DNA of 64,000 nucleotides from Oryzomonas sagensis (GTDB taxonomy: Bacteria; Desulfobacterota; Desulfuromonadia; Geobacterales; Pseudopelobacteraceae). The notes under the pieces were generated by a model, which had not been told where the DNA came from, ran no database searches, and was given only the letters and a program-made list of their open reading frames with translations. A program made the translations under genes and the position numbers. The stretch is taken from the NCBI RefSeq assembly GCF_008802355.1, contig NZ_VZRA01000002.1:343642-407641 (forward strand). The letters run 5' to 3'. Positions 4,713-34,673 of this stretch are shown here, piece after piece. Position 1 is the stretch's first letter. Each line of letters begins with the position of its first letter.

Positions 4713-5432
4713 TTACCGTGACTGGCGGGTATTCTGTTGGTCGATCTTGGCGTATTCCGCCTCGGAGGGGCGCAGGTAGACCGGCAGGAGGCGCTCCGGC
4801 GTCAGGGCGGCGCTGTTCCGGTAGGCGTGAAGGGCCAGGAGCGCGCCGTTGGCGGCGTGGCCCGCGTGGTGGAAGGGGGAGGGGAAGCGGGCCAGTTCGC
4901 CCATGCGTTCGGCGATGACCTGGCGGTAGCGGAGCGCGCCGTCGCCGGCAAAGATGACCGGCGTATGGGTGGCGGCGGAGAGTTTATCCAAAAACGCCTC
5001 CGGCCCCATGACGCACTCCGCCATGAGGGGGGCGGGGAGCGGGGCGGAGCAGTCGTACAGAGCGGCGTAGACCTCGTTCTTGCGGGCGTCCAGCAGGGGG
5101 CAGACCGGCAGGGAGGCCAGGGGGAAGTTCATGGCAAGCAGGGCCAGGGTGGAGAAGCCGACGCACGGCCTGCCGGTGGCCAGGGCCAGCCCCTGAATCG
5201 TGGCGACGCCGGCCCGCACCCCGGTAAAGGAGCCGGGGCCGACGGCGCAGGTAAAGAGGTCGATGGCGTCGATCGTGAGCCCCGCGGCGGCCAGCATGCG
5301 TTCGATCTCCGGTATGAGGCGCGCCGACAGGGTCTTGTTGGCGCTGAACAGGGTCTCGGCGACGATGGTTTCGTCGGAGGTCAGGGCGATGCTGGCGATG
5401 GCGGTGGAGGAGTCGATGCTGATGATGTGCAT
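4713..5432 (-). CDS. tsaB: tRNA threonylcarbamoyladenosine biosynthesis protein TsaB
   Basis: TsaB is the non-catalytic ASKHA-fold partner of TsaD, needed with TsaC and TsaE to place t6A at position 37 of ANN-decoding tRNAs. The 239-residue protein starts with IISIDSSTAIASIAL and has GPGSFTGVRAG at residues 65-75, the clearest family signature, followed by LLDARKNEVYAALY. It lacks the TsaD metal-site histidines, as expected for TsaB. It lies downstream of the respiratory gene run, separated by a palindromic repeat, so it may be transcribed independently. Confidence 0.93.
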   Translation of the reverse strand: MHIISIDSSTAIASIALTSDETIVAETLFSANKTLSARLIPEIERMLAAAGLTIDAIDLFTCAVGPGSFTGVRAGVATIQGLALATGRPCVGFSTLALLAMNFPLASLPVCPLLDARKNEVYAALYDCSAPLPAPLMAECVMGPEAFLDKLSAATHTPVIFAGDGALRYRQVIAERMGELARFPSPFHHAGHAANGALLALHAYRNSAALTPERLLPVYLRPSEAEYAKIDQQNTRQSR

Positions 5433-29961: not shown

Positions 29962-29990
29962 TTGACTATTTTAGTATAACGAAATATCTT
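29962..29990 (+). promoter_or_regulatory. Promoter of leader A
   Basis: TTGACT and TATCTT are 17 bases apart in an AT-rich region. Transcription would begin near 29997 and include the whole of leader A. Confidence 0.55.
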
Positions 29991-29992
29991 TT

Positions 29993-30116
29993 ACATAGAT
30001 GGATGAGGTGGGTATATTGATCCCGCCGCTATGTGACCAACAAAACTGCTGACCAGAACTACTGGAGGCCAAGGTTTCCTTTCCCAAATAGGGAAAGCTA
30101 ATTTTGGCCTTTTTTA
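29993..30116 (+). promoter_or_regulatory. Leader A: structured attenuator (copy 1 of a 3-copy family)
   Basis: ACATAG (29993) pairs with CTATGT (30029), and GGTGGG (30007) with CCCGCC (30022), giving an upstream hairpin. The conserved element GACCAGAACTACTGGAGG (30051-30068) follows. Its last bases start an intrinsic terminator (AGGCCAA with TTGGCCT, inner CTTTCCC/GGGAAAG, then TTTTT). The same arrangement recurs at 30830 and 33478. Upstream, 29802-29961 shows no gene. Confidence 0.65.
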
Positions 30117-30159
30117 TTTCAATTGCGGCACCACCACCCATACTAAAGAGGGAATAACC

Positions 30160-30738
30160 ATGAAGAACGGTACCTTCATTACGATTTGCCTGTGCCTTGT
30201 CGGTTTTATGCTCAGCGCCTGCGGCACCAGCGGTTCCAGCGCGTCTCCTAACTCAACCGCGACCCTTGCCGTGCCGGCCTCGCCGCCCGGCATCTCCGCG
30301 ACAAGCGGCACCAATCAGGCGACCGTCTCGTGGAGTCCGGTCAGCGGTGCGACTTCGTACAATATCTATTGGACGAACGACCCCACCCATGTGATGAAGG
30401 ACATGGGCGCGACGAAAATCGCCGGAGTAACCAGCCCGTACCGCCATACGAACCTGACGGTCGGCACCACGTATGCCTATGTTGTGACGGCGGTGAACGC
30501 TTCCGGCGAGAGCGCCGAGTCGGATGTCGCTGCAACGACGACGACGGCCCTTGACGGCCTTGCCCTCTATGCAACGAATTGTTCCGGGTGCCACAACCCG
30601 CTGGCGATATCCGAGAAAAAAGGGCGGACCGCCGCCCAGATCCAGACGGCAATTACCGGCAACAGAGGTGGCATGGGCGCTTTGACGGCCCTCACGTCTG
30701 CGCAGCTTCAGGCGATAGCGGATGTCCTCGGCTTTTAA
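30160..30738 (+). CDS. Lipoprotein with fibronectin-III domain and monoheme cytochrome c
   Basis: A lipobox cysteine lies at residue 21 (FMLSAC). Residues about 40-130 are a fibronectin type III domain (ATVSWSPVSGATSYNIYW, then YAYVVTAVNASGES). The C-terminal 55 residues form a minimal cytochrome c with CSGCH at 141-145 and a likely methionine ligand at 172 (GGMG). It would sit on an outer face of a membrane and pass single electrons. A paralogue with the same layout is at 32748-33317. It is preceded by leader A. Confidence 0.85.
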   Translation: MKNGTFITICLCLVGFMLSACGTSGSSASPNSTATLAVPASPPGISATSGTNQATVSWSPVSGATSYNIYWTNDPTHVMKDMGATKIAGVTSPYRHTNLTVGTTYAYVVTAVNASGESAESDVAATTTTALDGLALYATNCSGCHNPLAISEKKGRTAAQIQTAITGNRGGMGALTALTSAQLQAIADVLGF

Positions 30739-30829
30739 CCCGCTACGTGGGAGGGGGCGGCCAAGGAGGGGGCGAGGCGGCCTGCCGCCAATGGCTTGCC
30801 CGTTGTAAGAATATTTATACCAAACAGCT

Positions 30830-30890
30830 GACCAGAAAACTGGAGGCCGATGATCGTGCACAAGCGGTGCGCACGATCATCGGCCTCTTT
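30830..30890 (+). promoter_or_regulatory. Leader B: attenuator (copy 2)
   Basis: GACCAGAAAACTGGAGG (30830-30846) runs into a perfect 16-bp hairpin (30844-30859 with 30871-30886, 11-base loop) followed by CTTT. The stem sequence differs entirely from leaders A and C while pairing is kept. It lies 66 bases before the beta-propeller gene. Confidence 0.68.
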
Positions 30891-30955
30891 ATGTTTGGGA
30901 GATTACATAGTCTACCGCCGGTTCTGCCGGAGGAAACATCACACAGGAGGTTCAT

Positions 30956-32659
30956 ATGAAAAGATTTACCTGTTTGTTGCTTGCAGCCATGGCCGTTTTG
31001 TCCCTCGGCCTGTCAGGTTGCGGCAGTTCCGCTTCCGGTTCCGCTCCCGGTCAATCAACGGGAAAGACCGTGACAATCAACGGGGCGCTGGAGCCGGGTG
31101 CCGCCAAGGCGACCCTGAAGACGGCGGGAGCCGCGACGGCTTCCATCGGCACCGTTACGGCTCTTGATGCCGCCACGGGCGCCGTCATCAGCGTCGCACC
31201 GGTCAATGTTATTCCGGACAGCACGGGCACGGGCGGGACCTTCAGCGGGCTCACGATCACCGCTCCGTCGAGCCAAGCGGGCGTCATCCTTCGGGTGGTC
31301 CTGAACAACGGCACGATCTATCGCGCGCTTGTCACCAGCGATCTGAGTACGCAAACCGGCCCCTTGTCGGCCACCATCGGCCCCAATTCCGATGCCGTCG
31401 TCACCTCGGTGTCGAGTTCCCTCGGCATCAGCGGCGTGCTGGGCGATAGCGGCGTAAAGGTCCCGGCGGGCACGAAGCTTGCCGATGTCGCAGCCGCGGT
31501 TACCACGGCGGCAAGTTCCGTCCTGCCCAAGCTGCAAACCGGGTATGTGGTGGATACGGGGGGCTCCAGCCCGGCGGTGCCGGGAATCTCGCTTATCGAC
31601 AGGGTTTCCCAGACCGTAGTGAAAACCGTGCGCTTCACCAATCAGGCCGGCACCAGGATCGGCCATTTCGCCAACGTGACCGCCGACGGAAGCGAATTGT
31701 GGTCATGCAGCGGCCAGGGGGGCGCGACCGGGGTCGTGAATGTGTTCGATACCGCTGCCTTCAGGAATTTCAGTACGCTCAACGACAGCAATAAGGGGAG
31801 CTTCATCAAGAAATCGTTTGCCGTCGGTTGCGGTGTGCAAAACGTTCAATCTCCCGACGGCAAGTACATTTTCATCTCCGCCGACCAGTCGCCCAAGGGC
31901 ATCAACGTGTTCGACGTAAAGAACCACGCCTATCTGGGCAATATCGCCAACGGCAACACCGCGCCCCATGTGGGCGCCGTTTCGGCAGACGGCAAAAAGT
32001 ACTACACCACCACTGCCGGGTCGTACCACGCGGTTGGCTACGACATCTCCGGCCTGCCCGCCTCGGTGCCGACGGATGCGAACAAGATTCTGGATGTCAA
32101 CCTGGGCTACGGCAGCCTCCACGCCCTGCGGCTCCACCCCAACGGCAAGTATCTCTTTGTCGGAAACAACACCTGGCCGGTGCCGGCCGGGGTGACAACC
32201 CCCACTTCCGGAACCAACGTCATCGATATCGCCACGCAAAAGATCATTGCCACCATACCGGGACGTCCGCACAACTACGCCATTTCCCCGGACGGCAAGT
32301 ACCTCCTCGTCACCGAGTTGTCCTCGCCCGACTGCGAGGTGTCTCTCCCCGGCGATCCGGGCAACCGGCTGCAGTTCATCGATATCTCGACACTGCTTAC
32401 CGCCAATCCCGATCCGTCGAAAATAGCGGATATCTATCATTTCAATACCCCCGGCTACGGCGGCAGCCATGCGTCATGGGACCCGACCACGGGAACCCTT
32501 TACTACTCGGTGTATGACACCACGAATCAGGGATGGCTGATCCTGCTCAACACCAGCGGCCTGTCGGCGGCCACGCCCAGCGTCGCCCAGATAGGCAGCT
32601 TCATAAAGATCGGTTGGGCTCCGCACGGCGTTCTGTTCCCCGGCATAAACGGCGATTAG
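30956..32659 (+). CDS. Beta-propeller (YncE-like) lipoprotein
   Basis: A lipobox cysteine is at residue 22 (LGLSGC). Residues about 35-195 form a beta-rich Ala/Thr/Ser domain. From about 200 on, repeated blade motifs appear (VQSPDGKYIFISADQ, AVSADGKKYYTTTAG, LHPNGKYLFVGNN, ISPDGKYLLVTE). Histidines recur in equivalent places (PHVGAVS, LHALRLH, PHNYAIS, GGSHASW, APHGVLF), as at the metal or heme face of some propellers. No CXXCH is present. It sits between two fibronectin-III cytochromes and behind leader B, so it may be their partner. Confidence 0.75.
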   Translation: MKRFTCLLLAAMAVLSLGLSGCGSSASGSAPGQSTGKTVTINGALEPGAAKATLKTAGAATASIGTVTALDAATGAVISVAPVNVIPDSTGTGGTFSGLTITAPSSQAGVILRVVLNNGTIYRALVTSDLSTQTGPLSATIGPNSDAVVTSVSSSLGISGVLGDSGVKVPAGTKLADVAAAVTTAASSVLPKLQTGYVVDTGGSSPAVPGISLIDRVSQTVVKTVRFTNQAGTRIGHFANVTADGSELWSCSGQGGATGVVNVFDTAAFRNFSTLNDSNKGSFIKKSFAVGCGVQNVQSPDGKYIFISADQSPKGINVFDVKNHAYLGNIANGNTAPHVGAVSADGKKYYTTTAGSYHAVGYDISGLPASVPTDANKILDVNLGYGSLHALRLHPNGKYLFVGNNTWPVPAGVTTPTSGTNVIDIATQKIIATIPGRPHNYAISPDGKYLLVTELSSPDCEVSLPGDPGNRLQFIDISTLLTANPDPSKIADIYHFNTPGYGGSHASWDPTTGTLYYSVYDTTNQGWLILLNTSGLSAATPSVAQIGSFIKIGWAPHGVLFPGINGD

Positions 32660-32689
32660 GGACACCGCTTTCTCAAAATTGACTCATGT

Positions 32690-32716
32690 TGTCGCCGCCC
32701 CTCTGGGGCGGCGACA
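32690..32716 (+). terminator. Hairpin after the beta-propeller gene
   Basis: TGTCGCCGCCCC and GGGGCGGCGACA pair perfectly around TCT. There is no T-tract, so termination may be partial, allowing read-through to the next cytochrome gene. Confidence 0.5.
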
Positions 32717-32747
32717 AAGCCGCTACTCATCCAGTAATGGAGAACGT

Positions 32748-33317
32748 ATGAAAAGCATCCCGAGAATTTTCTGCTTGGTTGGCCTGTGCTGTAGCCTGTT
32801 GACTGCCGGCTGCGGAGACGGCGCCACTACCCGGTCCGCCACCGCAAAAACAGCATTGGACTCCCCGGCGGGCGTAACCGCCACTGGTGGAGTCAATATG
32901 GTGACACTCGCCTGGAATCCGGTTCCCGGCGCAACCTCCTACAACATCTACTGGTCTGCAAATCCGGGGGTGACCACGGCGACAGGCATAAAAATATCAG
33001 GAGTAAGCAGCCCGTATCACCATGATGGGCTGCTTGTCAGCCAAACCTATTTCTATGTTGTGACGGCGGTAAACGGCTCCGGCGAGGAAAGCCCGGCCAG
33101 CGAACAGGTTGCAACGGTTTCTGCAACCGGCGGCGCAAATCTGTACACTGCATACTGTGCCGGATGTCACGGCCCGCTTGCGGCCAGCACCATCATGGAT
33201 GGCACCCCCGACCATATCAAGGCGGCTATTGCGGCCAACACGGGCGGCATGGGCACACTTACCACCCTGACCACGGACCAGATAGATATCATCGCCCAAC
33301 TGCTGCCGTGTCATTGA
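32748..33317 (+). CDS. Second fibronectin-III/monoheme cytochrome c lipoprotein
   Basis: ATG at 32748 follows TGGAGAACGT; 189 residues. The lipobox cysteine is at 22 (LLTAGC). The fibronectin-III domain (VTLAWNPVPGATSYNIYW, then YFYVVTAVNGSGEES) is nearly a copy of that at 30160. The cytochrome part has CAGCH at 137-141 and the GGMG methionine. It lacks its own leader element and probably depends on read-through from the propeller gene. Confidence 0.83.
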   Translation: MKSIPRIFCLVGLCCSLLTAGCGDGATTRSATAKTALDSPAGVTATGGVNMVTLAWNPVPGATSYNIYWSANPGVTTATGIKISGVSSPYHHDGLLVSQTYFYVVTAVNGSGEESPASEQVATVSATGGANLYTAYCAGCHGPLAASTIMDGTPDHIKAAIAANTGGMGTLTTLTTDQIDIIAQLLPCH

Positions 33318-33373
33318 GGGAGGTCTAATAATCAATTAATAAATATAATATTTATAGATAAAGTATTTTTATA

Positions 33374-33402
33374 TTGACAACGTGCAAATGCGTTGCTATT
33401 TT
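33374..33402 (+). promoter_or_regulatory. Promoter of leader C
   Basis: TTGACA and TATTTT are 17 bases apart in an AT-rich stretch (33318-33400). Transcription would start near 33409, about 70 bases before the leader C element. Confidence 0.65.
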
Positions 33403-33477
33403 GACCGTCACATACGCCATGGCCAGTGCGACAACGGCGCCTGTTGAAACGTTCAAGAACACCCATAACCAGCGACC

Positions 33478-33540
33478 GACCAGAAAAACTGGAGGTTAAG
33501 GCAGAGTGAGTCACACTCATGGCCTTAACCTCCTTTTTTT
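33478..33540 (+). promoter_or_regulatory. Leader C: attenuator (copy 3)
   Basis: GACCAGAAAAACTGGAGG (33478-33495) overlaps a perfect 12-bp stem (33491-33502 with 33522-33533), with an inner GAGTG/CACTC pairing, followed by T7. The GGAGG of the conserved element is wholly inside the terminator stem. The start of the next gene is 140 bases downstream, so control of transcription rather than translation is likely. Confidence 0.7.
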
Positions 33541-33680: not shown

Positions 33681-34673
33681 ATGAAATCACACCGTTTGCT
33701 CACCGCCGCAGGTTTCGCCCTGACCCTTGCACTCTCGGGAGTCCTCGCCGGTTGCGGCAGCAGCACCAGCAGCACTTCCACAAGCTCAACGCCGGCCGCC
33801 ACCGTGGCCAAGGCCGTGGAGAATTTCACCACCACGGCAGCCCTGGCCGCAGAGCAGCAGAATGTCCTCGTCGTCGATGTCCGGGCCTTCAGCGCCTATA
33901 GCACCGGCCATATCCCCGGGGCCATTCGGAACACCGTGTCTCTGAATTCCGCCACGGCCTCGGCGACCGGTTTGCCCGGCACCCTCGGCCTGACCCAGGC
34001 CGAATTCGTCGCCCTGGCCGACAAGCTGGGGATTACCCCCTCCACCAAGGTGGTGGCCTACGACACCGACAACAGTTCCTCGGTGGGGCGTTTCGTCTGG
34101 ACCCTGCTCCGCTACGGGCACAAAAACGTCGCCATCCTTGACGGCGGCTACCAGAAGTGGATCGCGGAAGGGCGTGCCAAGGCGACCAAGGCCAATTCCA
34201 CGACGCCCACGGCCAACACCATCTCCTATGCCGTGACCAGCACGGCGGATATCGATGTCAGCGCCTCCTATGTCCTGTCCCGCATCAACGTGCCGGGCAC
34301 GGTCATCTGGGACGCGCGGACCCCGCTGGAGTATATCGGCTATGACCTCCGCACCAACCCGCGGGGGGGACACATCCCCTATGCGGTCAACCTCGACTGG
34401 ACGAATCTCCAGCAGCAGGGCAGCACCGGGGCCTATGTGCTGAAGAGCAGCACCGATATCCTGGCCCTGCTGGCCCAGTACGGCATCACGCCCGACAAGG
34501 AGATAATCGTCCATTGCCAGGCCGGGGTACGCTCCGCCTATGCCTCGGATACCCTTTTGGGGCTCGGCTTCACGAGGGTCAAGAACTATACCGGTTCCTG
34601 GGGCGAGTGGAGCGCCGCCAAGGACACGTCGGGAAACTATGTCTATCCCATTTCCACCGGCACCAACCCATAA
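33681..34673 (+). CDS. Double-rhodanese lipoprotein
   Basis: ATG at 33681 is preferred over 33672 because AAGGAG lies 10 bases upstream. The lipobox cysteine is at 25 (VLAGC). The first rhodanese domain (LVVDVRAFSAYSTGHIPGAI) has no catalytic cysteine (VVAYDTDNSSS). The second has C279 in VHCQAGVRSAY, so it can carry a persulfide. This is the layout of thiosulfate/mercaptopyruvate sulfurtransferases, here moved to the cell surface. Geobacter ext clusters for extracellular electron transfer also carry a rhodanese lipoprotein (ExtH) near a porin, as here. Confidence 0.85.
   Translation: MKSHRLLTAAGFALTLALSGVLAGCGSSTSSTSTSSTPAATVAKAVENFTTTAALAAEQQNVLVVDVRAFSAYSTGHIPGAIRNTVSLNSATASATGLPGTLGLTQAEFVALADKLGITPSTKVVAYDTDNSSSVGRFVWTLLRYGHKNVAILDGGYQKWIAEGRAKATKANSTTPTANTISYAVTSTADIDVSASYVLSRINVPGTVIWDARTPLEYIGYDLRTNPRGGHIPYAVNLDWTNLQQQGSTGAYVLKSSTDILALLAQYGITPDKEIIVHCQAGVRSAYASDTLLGLGFTRVKNYTGSWGEWSAAKDTSGNYVYPISTGTNP

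Follow-up and report, generated by a model that had tools for sequence, protein, structure and literature searches.

Hairpins that share a strand with intrinsic terminators mostly precede sulfur genes in Geobacterales and other bacteria and are candidate targets of the small protein YezD

INTRODUCTION

Why does Oryzomonas sagensis (Geobacterales) repeat one short sequence three times within a few kilobases, on each occasion directly before an intrinsic transcription terminator? The copies lie on the forward strand of a 64,000-nucleotide stretch of its genome (contig NZ_VZRA01000002.1, positions 343,642 to 407,641), called the window here, and an initial annotation of its letters had read them as a transcription attenuator or riboswitch of no named class that controls exported redox and sulfur genes. 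Bacterial sulfur control is usually described in terms of DNA-binding regulators or S-adenosylmethionine (SAM) riboswitches. We are confident that the attenuator family is real, that it is absent from Rfam as searched, and that it sits mostly on sulfur genes. From sequence comparison, we lean toward reading the copies as antitermination elements of a sulfur-starvation regulon, in which the family's hairpin would be held by a factor, the candidate being the small protein YezD.

RESULTS

Each copy in the window forms a hairpin that overlaps a terminator.

The copies consist of two blocks with a spacer of 1 or 2 nt: GACCAGAA-CT-ACTGGAGG at window position 30051 (copy A), GACCAGAA-A-ACTGGAGG at 30830 (copy B), and GACCAGAA-AA-ACTGGAGG at 33478 (copy C). 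The originally proposed consensus, with a one-base spacer, pointed to these three sites, while its fixed form fits only the copy at 30830; allowing three mismatches, 0.59 chance matches to it are expected in the window. With a variable spacer, the pattern has four exact sites in the whole O. sagensis genome, three of them inside the window, and the reversed pattern has none. A covariance model built from 88 copies (R1) finds 10 copies in this genome at E ≤ 1, of which three lie on the contig that contains the window.

Folded alone, the upstream part of all three copies gives a hairpin of two helices, P0 and P1. The putative antiterminator hairpin of copy A spans 30048 to 30069, as placed by family alignment A1 (the fold of 30041-30072 is P0 plus P1, −8.0 kcal/mol); P0 pairs 30048-30050 with 30067-30069, and P1 pairs CCAG at 30053-30056 with CTGG at 30062-30065. 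Its terminator (30066 to 30113; minimum free energy −30.4, z score −4.65) has an 11-bp lower stem and a 7-bp upper stem, is followed by a T-run, and has GGC in common with P0. In copy B, the putative hairpin (30827 to 30847; −8.3 kcal/mol; R1 match E 1.3e-7) pairs 30827-30829 with 30845-30847 in P0 and 30832-30835 with 30840-30843 in P1, and it leads into a terminator with a 17-bp stem (30843 to 30892; z score −7.35). That of copy C (33474 to 33497; −8.8 kcal/mol; R1 match E 1.9e-7) pairs GACC at 33474-33477 with GGTT at 33494-33497 in P0 and 33480-33483 with 33489-33492 in P1; the terminator behind it (33491 to 33540; z score −5.86) has a 12-bp stem and T7. Folding thus bears out the observation of three copies that each run into an intrinsic terminator, including the GGAGG enclosed in the terminator stem of copy C and the length of that stem; the stem of copy B, given as 16 bp, has 17. 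The CCAG/CTGG hairpin that had been suggested to compete is present and is larger than claimed, since P0 extends it.

No Rfam 15 family matched at the hairpins scanned at the curated gathering score, and at E ≤ 5 only two snoRNA and two microRNA chance matches appeared, none at the hairpins. Known Rfam classes are ruled out for the hairpins tested, in keeping with the earlier remark that no named RNA class has this consensus and with its own choice of an Rfam match as the result that would speak against it.

The hairpin and the terminator are mutually exclusive folds.

The family consensus is a 28-nt RNA hairpin, GRCU-GA-CCAG-AnAA(A)-CUGG-A-GGYC from 5' to 3', in which P0 (GRCU, or C at its last position, with GGYC) and P1 (CCAG/CUGG) flank a fixed GA/A internal loop and P1 is closed by the loop AnAA(A). 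The 3' strand of P0 is also the 5' arm of the terminator, and therefore the two folds exclude each other. We compared the folds in 242 of 253 instances, for which P1 and the two inner pairs of P0 were required, with the terminator register picked by score. At the R-Y position of P0, the base suits both folds in 228 of the 242, 196 of which have the commonest G-C-G combination. The equilibrium fold of the leader is the terminator. When P0-P1 is imposed on the full leader, the mean penalty is 6.3 kcal/mol, and it stays below 3 kcal/mol in 18 of 242; termination is thus the default state, which the hairpin can displace only with assistance.

Covariation was scored in three alignments: A1 (88 of 102 distinct rows), A3 (141 of 174 sequences), and A5 (140 of 192 sequences, three shortened matches having been given re-extended ends). 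Left out of A1 were L004, L012, L039, L053, L063, and L073, as coding sequence or for want of a terminator, and other rows that were cut short or core-identical; A5 omits L318, the second L329 match, L328, and L373, which were shortened or unlikely members. Among the 140 sequences, double-sided changes occur at 8 of 10 pairs, with 122 double-change cells where shuffles give 52 (standard deviation [SD], 6.8) and slid controls reach no more than 40; the 141-sequence alignment has 31 against 7.8 in shuffles. The outermost three pairs form in 57, 64, and 97 of the 140 rows. The two bulged A's and the loop-closing G-C pair (A8, G12, C18, and A22) are present in 140 of 140 rows, which were gathered with models that reward those core bases. 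In the first 88 copies, the R-Y pair of P0 is G-C in 61, A-U in 19, G-U in 6, and otherwise in 2, and P1 occurs across the family as CCAG/CUGG, CUAG/CUAG, CCGG/CCGG, UCAG/CUGA, and CCUG/CAGG. A DNA operator is ruled out by this RNA-type covariation of P1, by the variable loop length, and by the abutting terminators, a feature for which many copies had been selected.

The family extends beyond the Geobacterales.

The bare core pattern matched 26 of 39 relatives and its reversed control 10, some matches being coding sequence; the pattern of hairpin plus terminator matched 43 of 277 genomes of the host's class, 42 of them in the host's order, and the reversed pattern matched 2. Of 137 genomes searched in the host's order (about 141 exist), 71 match R1 at E ≤ 0.05. 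With R3, a broader model from 140 sequences, matches were found in 85 of 249 genomes of the order of Fictibacillus (E ≤ 0.02) and in 38 of 299 genomes of a sample of Bacillota, the phylum of Clostridium luticellarii (E ≤ 0.005). Of 13 genomes in the genus of C. luticellarii, 11 carry the hairpin, in as many as 15 copies (E ≤ 0.02).

Exact pattern matching across 84,980 species returned 106 stretches, of which 16 lie outside Geobacterales-type records by record title. The outsiders are C. luticellarii, other Clostridia, Ruminiclostridium, Syntrophomonas, Fictibacillus, Thermoflavimicrobium, another Bacillota bin, Nitrospirota, Auribacterota, Chloroflexi, four Omnitrophota, and a Treponema. The hairpin has examples in five phyla beyond the Geobacterales and Bacillota searches, several of these outside records being metagenome bins that are possibly misbinned. 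Inspection by eye placed 7 of the 16 before direct sulfur genes (two metK, a cysK, an OAH sulfhydrylase gene, and three sulfonate-type transporters), another 4 before NifB-like genes, and one before an Rrf2 regulator. Covariance models match in fourteen outsider genomes, which had been picked for their pattern match, with 11 copies in C. luticellarii and 12 in a Bacillota bin (E ≤ 0.1).

Copies in some genomes cluster as "sulfur islands" (G263:C62, L106-L112; G018:C58, L026-L029; G024:C152, L041-L043), with eight hairpins on one contig over about 62 kb. Tandem units, for example 112 and 120 nt apart, occur at L014/L015, L021, L166, L176, L334, and L352.

The downstream genes are mostly sulfur and nitrogenase-like genes.

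A first downstream gene (a frame of at least 80 codons on the same strand, starting within 450 nt) was found for 235 of the 242 instances; five were too short, and two had no frame. The sample includes related genomes, so that the counts are not independent. The largest clusters are CysH (25), NifB-like (20), NifH-like (19), MetK (15), and rhodanese (13), followed by SsuA-like proteins (10), a variant radical SAM protein (9), SsuB-like proteins (9), and CysK (8). OAH sulfhydrylase, nitrogenase-alpha-like, corrinoid, Rrf2, and propeller-like proteins form clusters of six; a sulfate-binding protein, SsuC-like proteins, a methyltransferase-like protein, and a transporter form clusters of five. 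Families counted as direct sulfur make up 102 of the 235, including 28 SsuA-, SsuB-, SsuC-, and sulfite-reductase-like members assigned by below-cut-off matches or by eye, and a further 45 are nitrogenase-like genes, which may be methylthio-alkane reductase genes.

One member each of CysH, NifB, CysK, MetK, OAH sulfhydrylase, the sulfate-binding protein, sulfate adenylyltransferase, and the variant radical SAM protein scored over its NCBIfam cut-off. The NifH-like, nitrogenase-alpha-like, SsuA, SsuB-like, DsrE2, sulfite-reductase-like, and corrinoid members scored below theirs, some of these sequences having been shortened to 330 residues; for rhodaneses outside the window, SsuC, and others, the names come from inspection by eye. 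The theme would accordingly be sulfur limitation, carried mostly by sulfate, sulfonate, cysteine, methionine, nitrogenase-like, and corrinoid genes.

These lists, in which the redox genes of the window are a minority, led us to drop a redox or electron-acceptor theme. The emphasis that the initial annotation had placed on redox does not hold for the family, which mostly precedes sulfur assimilation and organosulfur-scavenging genes. The covariance search that it had proposed did return many matches with covarying stems (71 of 137 order genomes), mostly before sulfur genes and in a minority before redox genes. Its reading as a transcription attenuator of no named class is well supported by the many genomes, the covarying stems, the terminator-competing hairpin, and the lack of an Rfam match at the hairpins tested; its interpretation as a whole is partly supported.

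Behind the other copies in the O. sagensis genome stand, by eye, a rhodanese gene, metK, a NifX-like/NifH-like pair, and the gene of the radical SAM protein, and two operons have the order cysK-yezD-hairpin-nitrogenase-like gene; the tenth copy is weak and lies at a contig end. Two near-identical yezD-hairpin-nifB stretches at contig ends (L160, C6:449; L161, C1:1701430), whose P1 arms differ, are a duplicate or an assembly artefact. The variant radical SAM protein stands behind the hairpin at L025, L030, L034, L097, L107, and C7:73762 of O. sagensis, in several loci followed by a small pyridoxamine-oxidase-like protein (by eye). At L029, L094, L095, L098, and L100, the hairpin precedes DsrE2-like and TusA-like genes and, after them, a family 2B encapsulin-like shell gene, so called because a 90-residue N-terminal piece matches NF041163; this suggests that a sulfur compartment may belong to the regulon.

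The hairpin co-occurs with yezD, which often directly precedes it.

A regular expression for a small protein with RFGTVTLVVQDGRVIQVDKNEKIRL found a frame ending close before 51 of 293 hairpins (52 matches, one spurious). Three of these YezD proteins match Pfam DUF2292 (PF10055) at 62 to 67 bits (gathering cut-off, 22) and no other Pfam family over cut-off; the best NCBIfam match is OscA (NF033785), at 33 and 29.9 bits, under the equivalog cut-off of 85. YezD averages 57 amino acids (89 parsed sequences, start codons guessed). An AlphaFold model has a helix at 11-23 and a beta-hairpin at 27-34/37-45 (mean pLDDT, 79; pTM, 0.53), and the only match of YezD to Protein Data Bank sequences is an unrelated reductase at E 0.14. 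Proteins with two DUF2292 domains in one frame of 126 to 129 amino acids occur at L529:1468-1854 and L530:1465-1842.

Among the 137 order genomes, 60 have both hairpin and DUF2292 and 11 the hairpin only, and since the four DUF2292-only genomes are counted against the association, their membership of the 137 not being shown, at most 4 have DUF2292 only and at least 62 neither (Fisher test, P = 3e-22). With eight weak hairpin matches treated as absent, the counts are 57, 6, 7, and 67 (both, hairpin only, DUF2292 only, and neither). The four DUF2292-only order genomes have R3 matches at E 1e-5 to 0.04, and DUF2292 is found in four genomes of the class outside the order. In the 299 Bacillota, taken as the same draw in both searches, the counts are 27 both, 11 hairpin only, 19 DUF2292 only, and 242 neither (P = 1.2e-17); Bacillus subtilis, a control genome, has DUF2292.

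Gene order adds to this association. Among the 27 Bacillota genomes that carry hairpin and DUF2292, 16 have a hairpin starting −1 to 166 nt past the nearest DUF2292 domain. In the host's class, where yezD could be parsed in 24 of 30 DUF2292 loci, a hairpin lies within 200 nt downstream in 10 of 24 and within 500 nt upstream in 0 of 24; that yezD does not stand behind an adjacent hairpin in these loci fits a regulator better than a target.

In most Bacillales loci scanned, a SAM riboswitch precedes yezD.

At locus L533 of Cytobacillus spongiae (NZ_CP089998.1), a SAM riboswitch (4760 to 4865) is followed by yezD (4950 to 5105), the hairpin and terminator from 5103, and then cysH, a transporter gene, sat, and cysC. 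The SAM riboswitch model RF00162 matched 11 of 20 Bacillota loci. These 11 belong to the 15 Bacillales loci in the set and share the order SAM riboswitch, yezD, hairpin, cysH-type gene. RF00162 had no match at the hairpin itself in the loci scanned and matched 0 of the 20 host-class DUF2292 loci searched, out of 30; the search of loci L381-L440 covered 57 of 60. A shortage of SAM might thus first increase YezD, which would in turn release the second control point.

Genes and promoter-like sites around the three copies.

On the forward strand before copy A lie two promoter-like sites (29962-29990, TTGACT-17-TATCTT; 29990-30018, TTTACA-17-TATATT), and before copy C lies another (33374-33402, TTGACA-17-TATTTT with TG), all identified by consensus match only. 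Two copies, the number credited with good promoters, do have such sites, but the region has 4 sites against 2.0 (SD, 1.5) in shuffles.

All genes described here are also on the forward strand. Behind copy A, the gene at 30160-30738 encodes a lipoprotein-like protein (by eye) with fn3 over the Pfam cut-off and a CxxCH cytochrome domain (Cytochrome_CBB3) just under it; the gene behind copy C (33681-34673) encodes an exported rhodanese with two domains (Pfam Rhodanese, 2 stretches). The exported protein behind copy B (30956-32659) has no Pfam match, its "beta-propeller" label resting on repeats seen by eye; relatives of it reappear behind other hairpin copies. A second fn3/cytochrome protein (32748-33317; fn3 and Cytochrome_CBB3 both just under cut-off) is encoded between copies B and C and lacks a hairpin of its own. 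Genome G004 (L037) has the same neighborhood as the fn3/cytochrome genes of the window, with two hairpins kept.

DISCUSSION

We propose that nascent RNA leaving the promoter would fold P0-P1 first. Without a holding factor, the longer terminator hairpin would capture the GGYC strand, and transcription would stop. Under sulfur limitation, a factor would read the GA/A internal loop and the A-rich loop and hold P0-P1, and the held hairpin would block closure of the terminator, so that the sulfur genes would be transcribed. The candidate factor is YezD (DUF2292, OscA-related), which would bind the hairpin and itself read the signal; a ligand could take its place. We rate antitermination with YezD as the binding partner at about an even chance. 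Equally balanced is the wider proposal that YezD/OscA (DUF2292) proteins are new sulfur-responsive RNA-binding antiterminators with the 28-nt hairpin as their target site, the two governing a sulfur-starvation regulon that spans about seven phyla and is nested under SAM riboswitches in Bacillales.

Several results weigh against this proposal. On the side of the RNA, P0 has only 3 or 4 pairs, one of them usually U-G, and the next pair outward forms in 147 of 242 instances. Pair types are not in excess in the 140 copies (24 against 22.7), and across the whole structure, the first 88 copies have 27 double-change cells against 21.1, a count that 65 of 500 shuffles reached; those 88 were gathered by a P1-fixing pattern and the later rows by models that reward structure. 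On the side of the protein, the Fisher tests of co-occurrence ignore shared ancestry. DUF2292 was not found in six order genomes with strong hairpin matches (E ≤ 1e-4; G001, G015, G033, G176, G254, and G270), among which G176 has six matches at 98% completeness and G015 and G270 have only short unclustered frames behind theirs. Conversely, 19 of 46 DUF2292-positive Bacillota have no hairpin at E ≤ 0.005, G140, G143, and G173 carry DUF2292 with no hairpin match at E ≤ 0.1, and two Novosphingobium plasmid DUF2292 loci have none at E ≤ 5. A fold search with the YezD model gave 121 matches at E ≤ 10 and none at E ≤ 0.001, and the mean net charge of YezD is just +1.5. Instead of regulating the genes, YezD could simply be another member of the sulfur set.

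The foremost alternative is a riboswitch whose hairpin itself binds a sulfur metabolite, with DUF2292 merely a frequent member of the regulon. Such a switch could turn genes on when it binds a starvation signal, for example O-acetylserine, or turn them off through a ligand that favors the terminator. The near-fixed core bases across phyla would fit recognition by a ligand no less than by a protein, tandem copies exist, and an aptamer embedded in a terminator has a precedent in the HMP-PP riboswitch, as described in passages of PMC6478431. However, the element is a plain hairpin with no pseudoknot or second domain, unusually small for an aptamer, and both the co-occurrence and the order of yezD before the hairpin would need a second explanation. 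The DUF2292 link favors a protein-bound element, and we consider the riboswitch unlikely.

Hairpins bound by proteins typically have the layout seen here, with a bulge, a 4-bp stem, and a loop, and the bound protein might be a CymR-like Rrf2 protein or a moonlighting sulfur enzyme in place of YezD. Rrf2 genes form a cluster of 6 among the 235 downstream genes, and one of their products scores over the NCBIfam cut-off for the Rrf2 superfamily, with CymR its best named family, under cut-off. Rrf2 proteins, however, are known as DNA-binding proteins, and no other RNA-binding family was recognized by eye in 75 neighboring-gene clusters, a weak test; we regard another trans-acting protein as still less likely than a ligand. 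Translation of a leader peptide may also control these genes, the upstream frames looked for having been of YezD type only. Plain intercistronic or leader terminators that set expression ratios without a switch would suit the strong intrinsic terminators in which the examined copies end and which are the equilibrium fold. Plain terminators, however, would not be expected to come with a conserved, covarying hairpin upstream that shares a strand with them, or to lie so often before sulfur genes, and we consider this explanation highly improbable.

If YezD-dependent antitermination is correct, it would add a widespread RNA-based regulon to sulfur control and give DUF2292/YezD/OscA a testable molecular job. 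It would also predict that unannotated genes, such as those for the exported cytochromes of the window, take part in the sulfur-starvation response.

Within the open-licence literature, the RNA family is apparently undescribed, and no mechanism was found there for yezD, DUF2292, or oscA. Termination control of B. subtilis sulphonate genes was reportedly described by van der Ploeg and others (2001). ANTAR targets have two hairpins with six-base loops, A at position 1 and G at position 4; they are ruled out here by the single hairpin per element, tandem in few loci, and by its A-rich loop of 4 or 5 bases. The SAM-I riboswitch (S-box, RF00162) is likewise a sulfur-gene leader with a terminator, and identity with it is ruled out because RF00162, in the 11 of 20 Bacillota loci where it matches, lies upstream of yezD and matches at the hairpin in none of the loci scanned. 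In passages of PMC545781, Rodionov et al. (2004) place S-boxes before the methionine genes metIC and metX in Geobacter, and no other sulfur leader in Geobacter appears in those passages. The G. metallireducens genome paper (PMC2700814) lists multicopy sequences, and GACCAG is absent from its main text.

Naville and Gautheret (2010), in passages of PMC2965389, describe an antiterminator-forming leader before an alkanesulfonate transporter operon in bacilli, with a common element before the sulfonate transporter and an unknown gene. By description, this ABC-leader/sulfonate element may be the same family, partially sighted earlier; unlike here, the passages of that text give it no wider regulon and no partner protein (PMC2965389). 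The HMP-PP (thiS motif) riboswitch is also a conserved element within an intrinsic terminator with two exclusive folds, and passages of PMC6478431 set it apart by its thiamin genes and known ligand. As for the protein, deep starvation of B. subtilis induces yezD among other genes, and deleting it left survival unreduced, according to passages of PMC6385201, and oscA of Pseudomonas is a sulfur-starvation and chromate-resistance gene (PMC3596284). The YezD proteins differ from OscA in scoring under the cut-off of NF033785.

The closest parallels are protein-dependent attenuators. In BglG/LicT systems, the RAT element is a short hairpin with an internal loop that overlaps the 5' arm of a terminator and wins only when stabilized. 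The family hairpin overlaps its terminator in the same way, but its sequence differs from the RAT, and it is spread over Geobacterales, Clostridia, Bacillales, and further phyla, where sulfur genes mostly follow it. In hutP- and PyrR-type operons, the regulator gene is followed by the attenuator and then by the targets. No homology to HutP emerged from Pfam, which gave only DUF2292 over cut-off for the three YezD proteins. The arrangement would be similar if YezD is a regulator: in part of the loci, yezD, as a small candidate regulator gene, directly precedes a terminator with a competing RNA structure, followed by pathway genes. Here, the RNA element is one short hairpin, and the pathway is sulfur.

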